DNA of 35,218 nucleotides, from positions 1 through 35,218 of the forward strand of contig JAILQK010000063.1 of the NCBI GenBank assembly GCA_024699045.1. The letters are read 5' to 3'. This DNA is from Lachnospiraceae bacterium. GTDB taxonomy: Bacteria > Bacillota > Clostridia > Lachnospirales > Lachnospiraceae. Below, in pieces: positions 9,404 to 33,840 of the stretch (within the stretch, counting starts at the first letter, position 1; each line of letters opens with the position of its first letter). A model generated the notes under the pieces. It was not told where the DNA came from, did not search any database, and saw only the letters and a list, made by a program, of their open reading frames with translations. Position numbers and translations under genes: made by a program.

Positions 9404-11315
9404 AACCTGCGGAATCTTCAGCATTATTGCCGAATTCATCCATCGCGATGATCTGAAGGCGGTATCTTCCGCTCTTCGTGACCTCACTTCCGTCATAATC
9501 CATTCCGTTAAGCATGACCTTGACCTGCACCATACTGCTGTCCTCGGCGATCTCATCCCCGACCTGCATCATAAAGCTTTTCAGAGTACTCCCGTTAAGC
9601 CCCGGAAGCCCTTTTATCACCGGAGCTTCTTTGTCTATCGCAAAGGCGATGCTTCGCAGGGTCCTGTTTCCCGCAAGGTCTGAAGCCTCCGCTTTGACGA
9701 TATATACTCCGCTGTTATCGAAGATCTCCTTATATTCTCCCGTATCCGTATGAAGCTCCGTATCCTTCAGATGCTCTCCGGCCAGGTCGTATCTGCTTAC
9801 CGTCCCGCTTATATGACACTTCTCATCCGAATCATCCTCTGCGGTAACCGACAGCGTCACGTCTTTACCGTAAACCCCCTTGTCGGTCACCCCCGAAAAG
9901 TTAAGTCCCGGCGCCTTACCGTCGCGTTTTTCGACCGTAAACTGTGAAGACGTTTCGTTCCCCGCCGCATCGGCCGCCGATACCGTATAGGTTCTCATCC
10001 CGTACGGCATATCGGAAATATCGATCTTCACTCTCTCCTTCTTCCCGCTGCCCTGATACAAAGCCCTGCTGCCGGTAGATATCATGACTTTCCCGACCCC
10101 CGCCGTATCATCTGCTGCGCTCACGGTAAGTTCCAGCTGATCCTCACTGATCTCGGCATCGTCGACTGAGATAACGGGAGGCCGGTCATCCACGATAAGC
10201 TCCTCGCAAAGGCAGCGCTTTCCGGTACTGTTGCCCGATCTGTCGGTCGCAAAATAATCTATCCGCCCCTTAAACGGCGGAAGGATGTCGATCTCATCTG
10301 CCGCCACGGACTCCAGACCGTTACATTCAATATAGATCCCCTCAAGCCCCGACAGCTCGTCATAAGCCTTAAGTTCTATATGTAAAGGCGCCTGGGAGAT
10401 CCGGGGCAGCTCTTCCGGCTCATCTATGACAGGAGGAGTACGGTCAAGCACAAGCCTTGAAGGAATATCCGCATAGGTCCTGTGTCCCATTCCGTCCTCC
10501 CCGTATACATATATACTGTATTCTCCTTCTTCATCGATGATGAATTCCGTATCCTCCGTGACTTCCTCCACCGATCCGTTCTTATGCCCCCTGATTTCGC
10601 AAAACACATGGGAATAAGGAAGCGGTGAGACCTTTAATGTGTATTTCCCATCCTCTTCATTAAGTACGGCTTCAGGCACATCATATATCCCGTCCACTAT
10701 ATCCGCCTGATATACCCCGCCGTGAAGTCTGGTCATTTCTCCCTCCGCATTCACTTTGTAAAAAACCACTCCCATGTTCTCAGCCCCTGAGCCGGATGTG
10801 GTCCCTCCCGCGGCCTCACTTCCCGAGGCCGGTATAGTCCCTCCTGTGGCCTCACTTCCCGAGGCCGGTATAGCGCCTCCCGCGGCCTCACTTCCCGGGC
10901 CAGGTATAGCGCCTTCCGCGGCCTCACTTCCCGGGCCCGGTATAGTTTCTCCTGTGTCCCCCGTCCCCGGGCCTGACATATATCCTTCCGTACCCTCCGA
11001 TCCGCAGTTCAGAATATATTCCCCGTTCTCTACCGGATTCAGGACGCTTCCGTCATCAAAGGCATAGATCTCTCCCGGAACAAGCTTATCCATGTTAAAT
11101 ACAAATCTTACCGGACCGGCGCATCTGGTATGATGATCCCCATCAAACCCGACCACGTGTCCCGCAGCATCAAAGGCCTCTGCCGCGCCATCCGTCTGGT
11201 CAGAGCAGGTTGCGGCAAACGCGTGGTCATTTGCAGAAATGACCGCAGCGGCAAAAACCGTACAAAAAAATAACAACGCCTTGAGCACGCACTCTGTCGT
11301 CTTTTTCTCTCTCAT
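9387..11315 (-). CDS. Secreted protein with multiple Ig-like domains
   Basis: This 642-residue protein begins with a signal peptide: a charged start MREKK, a hydrophobic core ALLFFCTVFAAAVISA and a likely cleavage at AFA-A near residue 34. Residues about 110-170 form a 12-residue repeat region (consensus PGPGSEAAGGAI). The rest is beta-rich, with at least three boundaries typical of bacterial Ig-like domains: DRTPPVIDEPEEL, DDRPPVISVDDAEI and DKEAPVIKGLPGL. Each is followed by YDLAGN- or DAAGNETS-like strands as in surface adhesin or carbohydrate-binding repeats. The C-terminus (EDSAGFEIRK) has no LPXTG, SLH or membrane anchor, so the protein is either released or held by non-covalent contacts. 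The start is set by the SD AAGGAGA. It has its own promoter and is not part of the ispG-polC unit. The ligand is unknown. Confidence 0.85.
   Translation of the reverse strand: MREKKTTECVLKALLFFCTVFAAAVISANDHAFAATCSDQTDGAAEAFDAAGHVVGFDGDHHTRCAGPVRFVFNMDKLVPGEIYAFDDGSVLNPVENGEYILNCGSEGTEGYMSGPGTGDTGETIPGPGSEAAEGAIPGPGSEAAGGAIPASGSEATGGTIPASGSEAAGGTTSGSGAENMGVVFYKVNAEGEMTRLHGGVYQADIVDGIYDVPEAVLNEEDGKYTLKVSPLPYSHVFCEIRGHKNGSVEEVTEDTEFIIDEEGEYSIYVYGEDGMGHRTYADIPSRLVLDRTPPVIDEPEELPRISQAPLHIELKAYDELSGLEGIYIECNGLESVAADEIDILPPFKGRIDYFATDRSGNSTGKRCLCEELIVDDRPPVISVDDAEISEDQLELTVSAADDTAGVGKVMISTGSRALYQGSGKKERVKIDISDMPYGMRTYTVSAADAAGNETSSQFTVEKRDGKAPGLNFSGVTDKGVYGKDVTLSVTAEDDSDEKCHISGTVSRYDLAGEHLKDTELHTDTGEYKEIFDNSGVYIVKAEASDLAGNRTLRSIAFAIDKEAPVIKGLPGLNGSTLKSFMMQVGDEIAEDSSMVQVKVMLNGMDYDGSEVTKSGRYRLQIIAMDEFGNNAEDSAGFEIRK
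10790..10976 (-). repeat. 36-bp tandem repeats within the Ig-like protein gene
   Basis: About five 36-bp units encode the 12-residue motif PxxGSEAxGGxI. Third positions vary less than in neighbouring sequence and units differ by one to four bases, so the array looks recently expanded. In-frame units preserve the reading frame when copy number changes. Confidence 0.8.
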
Positions 11316-14732: not shown

Positions 14733-15908
14733 ATGTCCACCGAAAAACTATATGACAGTTCCCCCTATGAGACCGAGTTTGAAGCAACTGTTTTGGAGAT
14801 CACTCCCGCAGGCGACGGACTCTGTAATGTGATACTCGACAGGACACTCTTCTTTCCGGAGGAAGGAGGACAATCCCCCGACACAGGACTTCTGGGAGGC
14901 TATGCGGTAACTTATGTATCAATAAAGGACGAAACGATAACCCATACGATAAGATGCGATGCGCCGGATCTTAAAGAAGGCTCCTCCGTCAAGGGGTCGA
15001 TCGACTGGCCGCACAGATTTTCAAATATGCAGAATCATTCCGGAGAGCACATCCTTTCAGGTCTGCTCCACACCGGGTGGGATTCCGATAATGTAGGTTT
15101 CCACCTGTCGGACAATACCGTAACACTGGACACCTCCCGTGAACTCACAGAGGAAGATCTGAAAAAACTCGAGGCAGAGGCAAATCACGCCATATACCGG
15201 GATCTTCCTGTAACCTGCAGGTATTACACTCCTTCCGAAGCTGCCGGGATCGATTACCGCAGCAAAAAAGAATTCACCGGTGATGTGAGGCTCGTCACGA
15301 TCCCCGGAGTCGATATCTGTGCATGCTGCGCCCCTCATGTATCCAGGACCGGTGAGATCGGGATCATCAAAATAATAAAAGCGATAAAATATAAGGGCGG
15401 CATGCGCCTTACGATACTCTCCGGAGCAAGGGCCTACCATTATCTTGCATCGATACAGTCCACTGCGGACACACTGTCCCACCTCCTGTCCGAAAGCATC
15501 GACACTCTTCCCGATGCCGTAAACAGACTATTGGATGACAATAACAGCCTTAAGATAAAGATAAAAAACATTTCCAGGGCAAGGCTTGAGGCAGATATCG
15601 CTGCTCTTCCCGAAGATACTAAAGCGCCTATCCTCTTCACCGACGCGCTTGACAATGTAGTCCAAAGAAATGCCGTCAACGAGCTTACCGCTTCTCATTC
15701 CGGTATCTGTGCCGTTTTTGCCTCCGATGACAAAGGCGGTTATAACTACATATGCGCATATCCCGGAGGTGATGCCCGCACTGTCTCATCGCTCCTTCAC
15801 GAAAAGCTCAATGCCAGAGGGGGCGGATCCGAGGCTATGGTGCAGGGAAACGTTGCTTCTTCCGAAGCGGAGATCCGCGCATTACTTGACAGCATCATAG
15901 AAAAATAG
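14733..15908 (+). CDS. alaX: Alanyl-tRNA editing protein, AlaX type with DHHA1-like C-terminus
   Basis: This 391-residue protein is a free-standing editing domain that hydrolyses mischarged Ser- or Gly-tRNA(Ala). The N-terminal half resembles the second additional domain of alanyl-tRNA synthetase: FFPEEGGQSPDTG near residue 45, the zinc-ligand motif NHSGEH near residue 100, and CACCAPHVSRTGEIG near residue 195, which supplies the second Cys/His pair. Residues about 265 to 391 form a DHHA1-like tail containing GGxS-type RGGGSEAMVQG. The start is supported by AAGGAGA ten bases upstream. It is the only plus-strand gene of the window and is monocistronic. Downstream lies the repeat element at 15922. 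Confidence 0.93.
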   Translation: MSTEKLYDSSPYETEFEATVLEITPAGDGLCNVILDRTLFFPEEGGQSPDTGLLGGYAVTYVSIKDETITHTIRCDAPDLKEGSSVKGSIDWPHRFSNMQNHSGEHILSGLLHTGWDSDNVGFHLSDNTVTLDTSRELTEEDLKKLEAEANHAIYRDLPVTCRYYTPSEAAGIDYRSKKEFTGDVRLVTIPGVDICACCAPHVSRTGEIGIIKIIKAIKYKGGMRLTILSGARAYHYLASIQSTADTLSHLLSESIDTLPDAVNRLLDDNNSLKIKIKNISRARLEADIAALPEDTKAPILFTDALDNVVQRNAVNELTASHSGICAVFASDDKGGYNYICAYPGGDARTVSSLLHEKLNARGGGSEAMVQGNVASSEAEIRALLDSIIEK

Positions 15909-15921
15909 ATTGTATTATTTA

Positions 15922-16180
15922 TGACTCTCGGGATGCAAATATACTTTGCGAGGGAATAACTGAGCCGTACTTAGCTCAGACGAGATCCAGTACCCGCAAT
16001 TACTTGTTGAGGAGAAAATAGAGATTTATCGACATTTTCTCACGAAACACAGTAATGCGCGGTACTTAGCTCGGATGAGCGTTGGCTCTGACCGAGCAAA
16101 GGATATTGCATCCCGAGAGTCAGAGCAAAGGATATTGCATCCCGGGAGTCAGAGCAAAAAATATTGCATCCCGGGAGTCA
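15922..16180. repeat. MITE-like palindromic repeat element, copy 1, with three 29-bp terminal units
   Basis: The core element (15922-16122, 201 bp) has perfect 16-bp terminal inverted repeats: TGACTCTCGGGATGCA at 15922-15937 and its complement at 16107-16122. Between them is a large imperfect palindrome, best seen where ATTACTTGTTGAGGAGAAAA (from about 16000) faces ATTTTCTCACGAAACACAGT (from about 16034) across a short loop. The right end is a 29-bp unit (GAGCAAAGGATAT plus the terminal repeat) that is repeated three times without spacers at 16094, 16123 and 16152. No protein is supported. The structure matches miniature inverted-repeat elements; I do not recognise the family. It follows alaX by 13 bp and may act as its 3' end. 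Confidence 0.8.
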
Positions 16181-16215
16181 GCGATCATTTATCACACTCT
16201 ATGAATAGTTGATTT

Positions 16216-16511
16216 TATATCTCGAGGGTGAAATATACTTTGCGAGGGAATATATGAGCCGCACTTAGCTCAGACGAGATCCAGTACCCGCAATTACTTG
16301 TTGAGGAGAAAATGGAGATTTATCGACATTTTCTCACGAAACACAGTAATGCGCGGTACTTAGCTCGGATGAGCGTTGGCTCTGACCGAGCAAAGTATAT
16401 TGCATCCCGAGAGTCAGAGCAAAAAATATTGCATCCCGAGAGTCAAAGCAAAGGATATTGCATCCCGAGAGTCAGAATAAAGGATATTGCATCCCGAGAG
16501 TCAGAGCAAAA
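16216..16511. repeat. MITE-like palindromic repeat element, copy 2, with four 29-bp terminal units
   Basis: This is a direct repeat of copy 1 displaced by exactly 294 bp. Over the aligned 186 bp from 16231 to 16416 I count about five substitutions and no gaps. The left terminal repeat is degenerate here (CTCGAGGGTG in place of CTCGGGATGC). The right 29-bp unit occurs four times (16388, 16417, 16446, 16475) and a fifth unit is cut after GAGCAAAA, where it runs into the gdhA terminator. A stretch of about 35 bp (16181-16215) between the copies is not repeated. Confidence 0.8.
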
Positions 16512-16544
16512 AGACTGCCATGCGATCATGCACGGCAGTCTTTT
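16508..16544 (-). terminator. Terminator after gdhA (bidirectional)
   Basis: A perfect 11-bp stem AAAAGACTGCC / GGCAGTCTTTT with a 14-nt loop lies 35 bp after the gdhA stop. The A-T flanks give T runs on both strands, so it can also stop plus-strand transcripts from alaX through the repeats. Confidence 0.93.
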
Positions 16545-16578
16545 ATTATCCTTGCATATATTATAGCCGCTATGTTTA

Positions 16579-17937
<1,359 letters not shown>

Positions 17938-31656: not shown

Positions 31657-33840
31657 CTACTGCTCCCTGGCCCATTTTGAGACAAATCTGCGAGTCTGCC
31701 GGGTTTCGTTCTCACCGGTCGAAGGCACGGATGCCGATACATCGTCCTGCTCCGACTCTGAAGAAACAAAGCTGAAGGTAGTGCTTATCCTGCTGTCTTC
31801 GCCGTCTGCGGAGGCATAGCGTCCTTTGCCCGTAGCGGTGACCCTTATCACGGTCCCTGCAGGGATGATATCGCATTTAAGATCAACCGGATCTCCGGCA
31901 TTTACATTCACCTTTTCATATTCTCTGCCCCAGATATCGACACGGCGCTCTACCGTCGTATCGTTCTCATAGGTATACTCGAGATCCCTTTCATAATCAA
32001 AGCCTGCCGCCAGTCTGGATCCCATCGCGTCATATATCCTGACCGTAGGATGACACAGGCGCGGTCTGTCGGAATACACCACATCGGAAGCGACGATGGT
32101 CCCGGATGCCAGACTGTCAGGATCCGCCGTCTCATCCTCCGAAGATCCGCTTTCGGTATTTTCGCCATCCTCAGGATCATTTTCGGGCTCGCCTATCGAA
32201 AGGGTATATCTGACCTCCTCGTCAAACACCTCCGGATCGGAACCGTTTTCATTCTCCTCTGCTCCCGGAAGCTCACCATACCACAGATCAAGATCCAGAT
32301 GGACACTCTTCATAAGTCCGAGTCCGTTACTTCCCTCTCCGAATCCCGTGAATCTGCTCGTAAACTGCCATGCCTTCAGAGCACCCTCATACGAGGTGGA
32401 ATAAACCCCGTCATCTCCGTTATCGACGAAGTTAGCCATCCAGATCAGATGCTCCTCGGGAATGTCCTCAAGCTCGATGTCCTTTTGAAGCATACTCTTA
32501 TTGGCATATATTCCGGGAGTATAACCCTCTTCCTCGACTCTGTCACAGAATGCGTTCACTATCCCCGTATGCTCATCTGCGTTAAGATCCGCCCCTCTGA
32601 GACGTCCCGGAGAGCCTGAATACTCATAGTCGATCACAACGGGAAGGCTTATCCGGTCCTTGTGCCCGTCTATGATCTGCATGCAGTGATCTGCTTCATC
32701 CTCCGCTTCCTCCACCGAGATCGCCTGTGAAAAATAATAGATCCCTACCGCGATCCCTGCGTCATCCGCATTATCGATATTTTCCCCGCAGCACACATCC
32801 TCGTTCAATGATCCTCCGGCGCCGTATCCGCGGTATCCGGCTCTTATAAATACAAAATCTATGCCGTAGGTATCCTTCAAAGTCCTGAAATCGTCGACGG
32901 AAATAACTCCCTGATAGCGGGAGATATCCATCCCGCAGTGAACCTCGGGAAGATCATCCTTCATGGAATCAAAGAAACTCGGATATCTGTACTTAAAATC
33001 AGGATTAAGGATCAGTGTATACGGATCCCTTACTCCATCAAACCTGTCTTCCGTATTCTTAAGCGGGATCTCGATGCCTCCTCCGTTAAACTCGGGATCC
33101 GTCACCCTCTTGTACATTTCGGGATCCTCAGGCTCAAACTCCCAATGTTCGCCGTTCTCATCGACATAATCAAGCATGCCGTTTTGGTTTTCGGTAATGC
33201 CGTGCTCCTTAAGCCACTCTTCCTCGGCCTTTTTCTGTTCTTCGGCCTTTTTTTCTTCCTCGGCCTTTTTCTCTTCCTCGGCCTTCTTTTCTTCTTCGGC
33301 TTTTTTCTGCTCCTCGGCCTTCTTCTCCTCTTCTTCGGCAGCTTCCTTTGCCTTCCTTTCGGCCTCCTCAGAAGCAGCCTCCTCATCGGTCTCATCGGTT
33401 TCCGAAGCAGCTTCTTCCGTCACTTCCTCATCCTCGGAGGCATCTTCCGTATCCCTGTGTAGAGCCATGAAGGAAACACCTTCATCCTCACTTGAGACAT
33501 CGGTATCCGCACCCTGTCCCGATGCCACAGCCTCCGCCTCACCGGCGTTTACCATCACGGAATCAGCCGGGGTTGTCCCCGTCGTATCGCTGCCGGCCGC
33601 TGTTTCTGTCCCATCCGTAGTTTCTGCTGCAGCAGACGTCTCCTCCGCTGCCCCCTGGCCGGTACCGGCGGTCTCACTACCCTCTTCAGTGCCTGAAGCC
33701 GTCTCGGCAGACTGCTCCGTTGCAGCCTCTCCGCTGGAGTTTTCGGAGACAGCGTCAAGATCAGCGGCAAATATCTGTGTCATAAAAACAGATGCCGCAA
33801 GTATCATACTTATGAAAGCTGCCCCGACCCTTTTATTCAT
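31657..33840 (-). CDS. Secreted GH25 (lysozyme-type) muramidase-like protein
   Basis: This 727-residue protein has a signal peptide (MNKRVGAAFISMILAASVFM, cleavage near AFA-A at residue 25). Residues about 30-160 are a Thr/Ser/Ala/Glu-rich region, and residues about 165-215 form a Lys/Glu helix with six or so AEEEKK repeats. The GH25 catalytic domain follows (residues about 300-525): it starts CGMDISRYQG, contains VFIRAGYRGYG and VVIDYEYSG (the DxE acid pair near residue 405), and ends near VHLDLDLWYG. The C-terminal 200 residues are an unrecognised beta-rich region (TIVASDVVYSDRPRLCHPTV). GH25 enzymes cut the MurNAc-GlcNAc bond of peptidoglycan, so remodelling or lysis of walls is likely. 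No wall anchor was seen. The SD is AAGGAGAG. Confidence 0.9.
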   Translation of the reverse strand: MNKRVGAAFISMILAASVFMTQIFAADLDAVSENSSGEAATEQSAETASGTEEGSETAGTGQGAAEETSAAAETTDGTETAAGSDTTGTTPADSVMVNAGEAEAVASGQGADTDVSSEDEGVSFMALHRDTEDASEDEEVTEEAASETDETDEEAASEEAERKAKEAAEEEEKKAEEQKKAEEEKKAEEEKKAEEEKKAEEQKKAEEEWLKEHGITENQNGMLDYVDENGEHWEFEPEDPEMYKRVTDPEFNGGGIEIPLKNTEDRFDGVRDPYTLILNPDFKYRYPSFFDSMKDDLPEVHCGMDISRYQGVISVDDFRTLKDTYGIDFVFIRAGYRGYGAGGSLNEDVCCGENIDNADDAGIAVGIYYFSQAISVEEAEDEADHCMQIIDGHKDRISLPVVIDYEYSGSPGRLRGADLNADEHTGIVNAFCDRVEEEGYTPGIYANKSMLQKDIELEDIPEEHLIWMANFVDNGDDGVYSTSYEGALKAWQFTSRFTGFGEGSNGLGLMKSVHLDLDLWYGELPGAEENENGSDPEVFDEEVRYTLSIGEPENDPEDGENTESGSSEDETADPDSLASGTIVASDVVYSDRPRLCHPTVRIYDAMGSRLAAGFDYERDLEYTYENDTTVERRVDIWGREYEKVNVNAGDPVDLKCDIIPAGTVIRVTATGKGRYASADGEDSRISTTFSFVSSESEQDDVSASVPSTGENETRQTRRFVSKWAREQ
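33220..33330 (-). repeat. 18-bp repeats encoding the AEEEKK helix
   Basis: About six 18-bp units within the GH25 gene encode AEEEKK, sometimes AEEQKK. The protein segment should form one long charged helix or coiled coil that spaces the catalytic domain from the cell surface. Confidence 0.75.

Follow-up and report, generated by a model that had tools for sequence, protein, structure and literature searches.

The gene gap between alaX and gdhA in a contig of a Lachnospiraceae bacterium (GCA_024699045.1, JAILQK010000063.1) contains a nearly palindromic sequence in two closely spaced copies, and this raised the question of whether the pair is a local curiosity, a mobile repeat or a structured RNA. 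The window analysed here is the whole stretch of 35,218 nucleotides. An earlier note made from this sequence alone had described a 201-bp element with perfect 16-bp terminal inverted repeats, a second copy 294 bp further on with about five substitutions over 186 bp, a hairpin-forming interior and no supported ORF, and had left a MITE or a structured RNA as possible readings. These observations were confirmed on re-examination of the sequence. The region 15922-15937 equals the reverse complement of 16107-16122 and the match extends to 17 bp (15922-15938/16106-16122), whereas positions 15937-16122 compared with 16231-16416 showed exactly 5 differences in 186 (15959, 15960, 15968, 16020 and 16102). 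The 201-nt + strand folded at -99.2 kcal/mol as against -48.0 (sd 4.0) for shuffled sequences (z -12.7, 0 of 200 as good), and the - strand gave z -10.7, also with 0 of 200. No convincing ORF was found, and of the ORFs of 80 aa or more only an 84-aa one (16312-16566) overlaps copy 2. In addition, the Tandem Repeats Finder detected two 29-bp tandem arrays of the right terminus that the note had missed. The interval given in the note ends at 16511, which is about the end of the second array, and copy 2 itself ends at 16416. The features of the locus are as follows.

14733-15908, + strand: flanking alaX-like gene (391 aa; Pfam tRNA_SAD and tRNA-synt_2c)
15922-16122, + strand (as modelled): copy 1 of the hairpin element, model R1 core 15943-16104 with 158.5 bits
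15985-15988, + strand: internal-loop strand ATCC of copy 1 (16279-16282 in copy 2)
16021-16032, + strand: apical GAGATTTATCGA with tandem G-A mismatches in copy 1 (16315-16326 in copy 2)
16067-16069, + strand: opposite loop strand TAG of copy 1 (16361-16363 in copy 2)
16094-16181, + strand: 29-bp tandem array of the right terminus, 3.0 units
16220-16416, + strand: copy 2 of the hairpin element, 96% identical to copy 1 over 197 nt, model R1 core 16237-16398 with 166.7 bits
16388-16510, + strand: 29-bp tandem array of the right terminus, 4.2 units
16509-16544, no strand assigned: terminator-like hairpin between the second array and gdhA (inverted repeat, arms 16509-16523/16530-16544)
16579-17925, - strand: flanking glutamate dehydrogenase gene (448 aa; Pfam ELFV_dehydrog), converging on the element

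A similar array of terminal units, about 27 bp apart, flanks the copy on contig C179 of the same genome (G000). Because each unit can pair with the left arm, we infer that an array offers alternative closings of the hairpin. Elsewhere in the window, tandem repeats of 36/72 bp and 18/36 bp were found at 10801-10973 and 33217-33327, respectively, apparently inside coding regions.

The number and distribution of copies, which the note had proposed as a check of the MITE reading, were examined next. The own genome G000, a MAG of 81% completeness, contains seven copies on five contigs, and the other six are 90-96% identical to the query over the parts aligned. Blastn found the element in 10 of the 61 genomes searched, own included, all in the genus. 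A covariance model of 26 copies (R1) detected it in 14 of 48 genus genomes, and a broader model later added one further genome, G066, from the remaining 34. A pattern scan of 84,980 named species genomes returned 27 stretches, of which 25 were titled Lachnospiraceae (nearly all MAGs, many from rumen, plus the strain AC3007), in agreement with the host family named in the note. The other two, in Schleiferilactobacillus, are chance hits as they do not match R1 and do not fold as the hairpin. When R1 was applied to an order-wide sample, 3 of 392 genomes were hit, two of the genus and one of another genus (G345). The addition of G345 and diverged genus copies gave the broader model R2, which hit 31 of 397 genomes of the bacterial family in 28 of 334 genera at E 0.001 or better, with at most seven candidates scored per genome; two of the 31 hit genomes (G000 and G061) had supplied sequences to the model. 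The genus of G345 is not among these 28, so that the family spans at least 29 genera. On fuller scoring, 12 chosen multi-copy genomes gave 43, 36, 19, 15, 14, 12, 10, 8, 7, 7, 5 and 3 matches at E 0.01 or better. These are counts of matches: of the 36 in G518, 32 lie at distinct places, and second hits on the opposite strand are not ruled out among the others. The E-values are rough, and the weakest hits (G545, G706 and G574) rest on 29-37 bits. Thus, the two repeats belong to a large and apparently undescribed family of long hairpin-forming elements scattered between genes in many Lachnospiraceae.

The anatomy of the element was then compared across copies using three alignments. A2 holds 26 of 32 stretches drawn from the genus and does not include window copy 2, A3 holds 30 hand-picked sequences, and module-bearing and truncated copies were left out of both; A4 has 108 rows and was fitted to the model. 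From the tip downwards the rod, of about 200 nt, consists of a stem carrying tandem GA mismatches below the loop, an ACTT/TAGT-bearing stem, an internal loop whose strands are AUCC and UAG, stems around GAGCCG/GUUGGCUC with an almost invariant G-U pair (89 of the 94 distinct sequences with letters there), and an outer stem of about 20-25 bp. The tip is GAGATTTATCGA in most genus copies and nearly constant in A2, whereas genus variants and other genera keep GA...GA with a different tip, in forms such as GA-AGG-CTCT-CCT-GA elsewhere; of 28 loci considered in that comparison, the 18 that met our motif filter were folded. In A4 the AUCC (columns 52-55) and UAG (columns 299-301) letters are 99-100% conserved in 108 rows, and unpaired columns are on average more conserved than paired ones (0.73 against 0.61 top-base frequency). 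Within the genus alone, loops and stems of A2 are about equally variable (mean entropy 0.715 and 0.743). The outer stems differ between genomes and between many copies of one genome yet pair, whereas recent copies in G000 and in the genus genomes G020 and G024 share theirs. Outside the genus, the foot of the outer stem is CA|G...C|GTCC in 12 of 56 rows at the automatically placed foot, although many rows in that analysis stop inside the hairpin, and CGTCC stands in the 40-nt right flank of 24 of 29 G518 copies.

Compensating changes, which the note had linked to the structured RNA reading, were found in all three alignments. The pairs with changes on both sides were 36 of 55 in A2, 46 of 57 in A3 and 56 of 57 in A4 (98 distinct sequences), as against shuffled means of 24.8, 33.1 and 49.8, respectively. 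The covariation scores were 0.344, 0.359 and 0.538 as against 0.149, 0.159 and 0.169 for shuffled and at most 0.094, 0.130 and 0.103 for slid controls. All three lean towards the structure, because A4 was fitted to the model and the structures of the MAFFT alignments A2 and A3 were voted from single-sequence folds of the same sequences, and one measure did not exceed its control within the genus (further pair types in A2, 68 against 65.1, reached by 109 of 500 shuffles). No Rfam match was found at the element in window 15000-17500, at 15 genus loci or at 20 further loci (19 of other genera and one of G066). Known regulatory or structured RNAs, namely a T-box below its cut-off, TwoAYGGAY, a SAM riboswitch and Clostridiales-1, lie within about 1 kb of some elements.

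The evidence on the strand is mixed. The modelled strand folds better than its complement in 95 of 98 distinct core sequences with RNA energies and in 96 of 98 with DNA energies, but the model itself chose that strand. Over all pairs G-U exceeds A-C (83:36 in A2 and 292:123 in A4). When only pairs that are Watson-Crick in at least 60% of sequences were counted, however, the ratio was 18:20 in A2 and 36:18 in A3 with pairs from + strand folds, and 19:12 and 36:18 with pairs from - strand folds, which weakened the asymmetry. Strand-specific selection is therefore suggested by the fixed G-U pair and the folding energies but not proven, and folded RNA, single-stranded DNA and a duplex palindrome are all compatible with these data.

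Signs of mobility were sought by comparing loci between genomes. Between most loci, blastn found similarity in the element only. The gap between an Iso_dh (leuB-like) and an ilvD-like gene is 18 nt and empty in the genus genome G033, carries the element in G021 and carries it in the opposite orientation, with an inserted module, in G023. Similarly, the gap between a leucyl-tRNA-synthetase gene and a 460/463-aa gene is empty in G005 and filled directly behind the stop codon in G021. G018 and G023 have the element beside the same gene in the same orientation, so some insertions may be old. In G000, contigs C136 and C153 have homologous flanks, 84% identical, that carry the element in opposite orientations, and in C136 the flanks beyond the element also pair with each other; the other G000 copies do not have homologous flanks. 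These gaps indicate mobility, although no transposition was observed and most genomes are drafts or MAGs. A TA was seen on both sides of the C136 copy only, the other own-genome copies lack it, and the empty sites are too diverged to read a target duplication. For the window itself no empty site could be shown, because the gene order differs from that of relatives: in seven genus relatives gdhA is followed on the same strand by the alaX-like gene (gap of 82-868 nt between the matches, no R2 match), whereas in the window the two genes converge, so one was inverted beside the element pair.

The copies are found between genes. Of the 54 R1 matches in the genus, 51 were analysed (three partial ones were left out), and 50 of these overlap no long ORF when ORFs under 110 aa overlapping the element are ignored. 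Gene contexts, which all rest on a simple ORF finder, were -- 19, ++ 11, +- 5 and -+ 3 for the 38 of 51 genus copies scored (one ++ rests on the doubtful 84-aa ORF), and +- 18, -- 14, -+ 13 and ++ 9 for 54 placements outside the first genus set, two G066 loci included. In G518, 15 of the 29 placed copies (of 36 matches) lie between convergent genes and 1 between divergent ones, but by the contexts of the 54 placements a 3'-end preference is not universal. The element is also found in nested arrangements. In G021, G022, G023, G024 and G005 a second family of palindromic modules (several hairpins with 3-nt loops, such as AGACACGCCATGCGTGTCT) has entered an arm, left or right, in either orientation, at nine loci. 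In G345 the hairpin sits inside larger non-coding palindromes, part of a nested set of 79 bp to about 1 kb with shared ends AAATTGCGGTTTGTCGGGGAG, which occurs 28 times in that genome (0 for the control) and also bounds a bare 79-bp hairpin. G757 has three direct copies 277-295 bp apart, like the 294-bp pair of the window.

No mobiliser was identified in the sequences searched. A pattern search of the own genome with one end, allowing 3 mismatches, gave eight matches, all at element copies or their arrays. Among the 28 matches to the ends in G345, no transposase was seen, with ORFs listed for two loci and the others read by eye, and a 3-kb interval on its contig C118 that might have been an autonomous transposon is, in our reading of the translation, a penicillin-binding-protein-like gene. 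No recurrent neighbour was found, as at most 3 of 81 flanking proteins share a Pfam family (81 of the 91 found were scanned, all but a few from outside the genus). A phage or plasmid origin was also rejected: pattern scans of viral contigs gave 0 hits in one case and 4 in another, 0 of 4 of which match R2, and a plasmid search with a single other-genus element gave 0 hits.

The interpretation offered in the note was thus partly supported, each of its alternatives being half right. The many intergenic copies and the gaps filled in one genome and empty in another make this a dispersed mobile-type repeat, and the conserved pairing indicates that the fold itself is constrained. What the sequences show directly is two tandem copies of a non-coding, dispersed element, numerous and family-wide, one strand of which folds into a rod with the apical tandem G-A motif, the AUCC/UAG loop, further conserved loops and an outer stem that changes letters but keeps pairing, together with two gaps that hold a copy in one genome and are empty in a relative. 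It is our inference, held with moderate confidence, that an enzyme encoded elsewhere recognises the folded element by its shape and loops rather than by terminal sequence, and copies or inserts it into gaps between genes (in the two slots read, directly behind a stop codon). In this view the arms can be duplicated afterwards, as in the 29-bp arrays and tandem copies, and can accept other palindromes, and the copies in place are probably near-neutral passengers that add a strong hairpin to neighbouring transcripts.

Other explanations were considered and found less likely. A host-useful structured RNA, acting as a 3'-end stabiliser, processing site or terminator or binding an RNA protein, with dispersal being secondary, would agree with the conserved loops and covarying stems, the almost invariant G-U pair, the better folding of the modelled strand and the convergent contexts in G518. 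This is possible but unlikely, because the orientation towards neighbouring genes is not fixed, the copy number varies from none detected (34 of 48 genus genomes by R1, G066 among them being found later by R2) to 43, flanking genes share no family, and G-U is not favoured over A-C at variable pairs within the genus. A palindrome kept complementary by DNA-level copying between arms, through template switching or gene conversion at a cruciform, would give paired changes without selection on a folded single strand, and the near symmetry, the 18:20 ratio, the pairing flanks of C136, the inverted element in C136 and C153 and the arm arrays fit with it. It is doubtful, since arm correction would erase the asymmetric internal loops, yet AUCC/UAG is conserved, and it does not explain dispersal to dozens of sites or loop conservation across genera.

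A REPIN/IS200-like element moved by a Y1 (HUH) transposase acting on single-stranded hairpins was regarded as the least likely. Palindromes, head-to-head pairs and the foot motif outside the genus resemble such a system, and in the left replichore of G518, 14 of the 16 copies considered are lagging-sense. However, only 6 of 16 are lagging-sense in the right one, giving 20 lagging-sense and 12 leading-sense among 32 of the 36 matches, which is no clear bias. Furthermore, Y1_Tnp is present in 5 of 14 R1 carriers as against 19 of 34 others in the genus (6 of 15 against 18 of 33 with G066 moved to the carriers), and is absent from 7 of 20 carrier genomes that we chose, including two with 8 and 10 matches at 99% and 92% completeness. 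The association with Y1 transposases was therefore rejected.

The element was also compared with described repeats by its features. The BOX, RUP and SPRITE repeats of Streptococcus (PMC3049150) are likewise short non-coding interspersed elements that form stem-loops, BOX being modular, are over-represented between convergent genes, and MITE-type repeats there are thought to borrow transposases of the host; the present family spans at least 29 genera with a conserved internal-loop core, compensated variable outer stems and nested palindromic modules. The REP/BIME/REPIN repeats, including CGTC-tagged REPs (PMC3733652), are also intergenic palindromes paired in opposite orientation with short unpaired tags such as CGTC and CCA beside the stem. 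The REPs are 20-40 bp, with 8-9 bp stems in CGTC families, whereas the rods here are about 200 nt with many internal loops, and CCA lies 5' and CGTCC 3' of the stem, apparently the reverse arrangement in our reading; the text of that paper has no mention of Firmicutes or Clostridi. MITEs have been reviewed (PMC10969869). Like the classical MITE, the present element is non-autonomous and non-coding, has inverted ends and is dispersed between genes, but the strict MITE reading is not shown, as no target duplication was recognised, no matching transposase was seen in the sequences examined, and between genomes the ends vary while the core stays constant, the reverse of a classical MITE. No description of the family was found in a limited full-text literature search, from which most subscription papers are missing. 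The element works like BOX, REP and MITE repeats, but it fails the tested defining features of REPINs, and the specific features of a classical MITE (shared ends and target duplication) were not shown. We therefore place it among the bacterial interspersed palindromic repeats. A more far-reaching reading, that this is a family-wide class of mobile elements recognised by three-dimensional hairpin shape (folded RNA or single-stranded DNA) rather than by terminal sequence, for example a bacterial SINE-like RNA or the substrate of a hairpin-reading recombinase yet to be identified, with shape conserved and letters free across at least 29 genera, is not excluded but remains tentative.

Lachnospiraceae are among the main bacteria of gut and rumen. 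A repeat family with up to dozens of copies per genome and a nearly invariant internal loop, with no match in Rfam 15 for the loci tested, implies an unidentified recognition and mobilisation machinery in these bacteria. It makes shape-based DNA mobility testable in a relative with a strain genome, the cultured isolate Lachnospiraceae bacterium AC3007, and it affects assembly, as many copies lie at contig ends, as well as intergenic annotation and perhaps gene expression.
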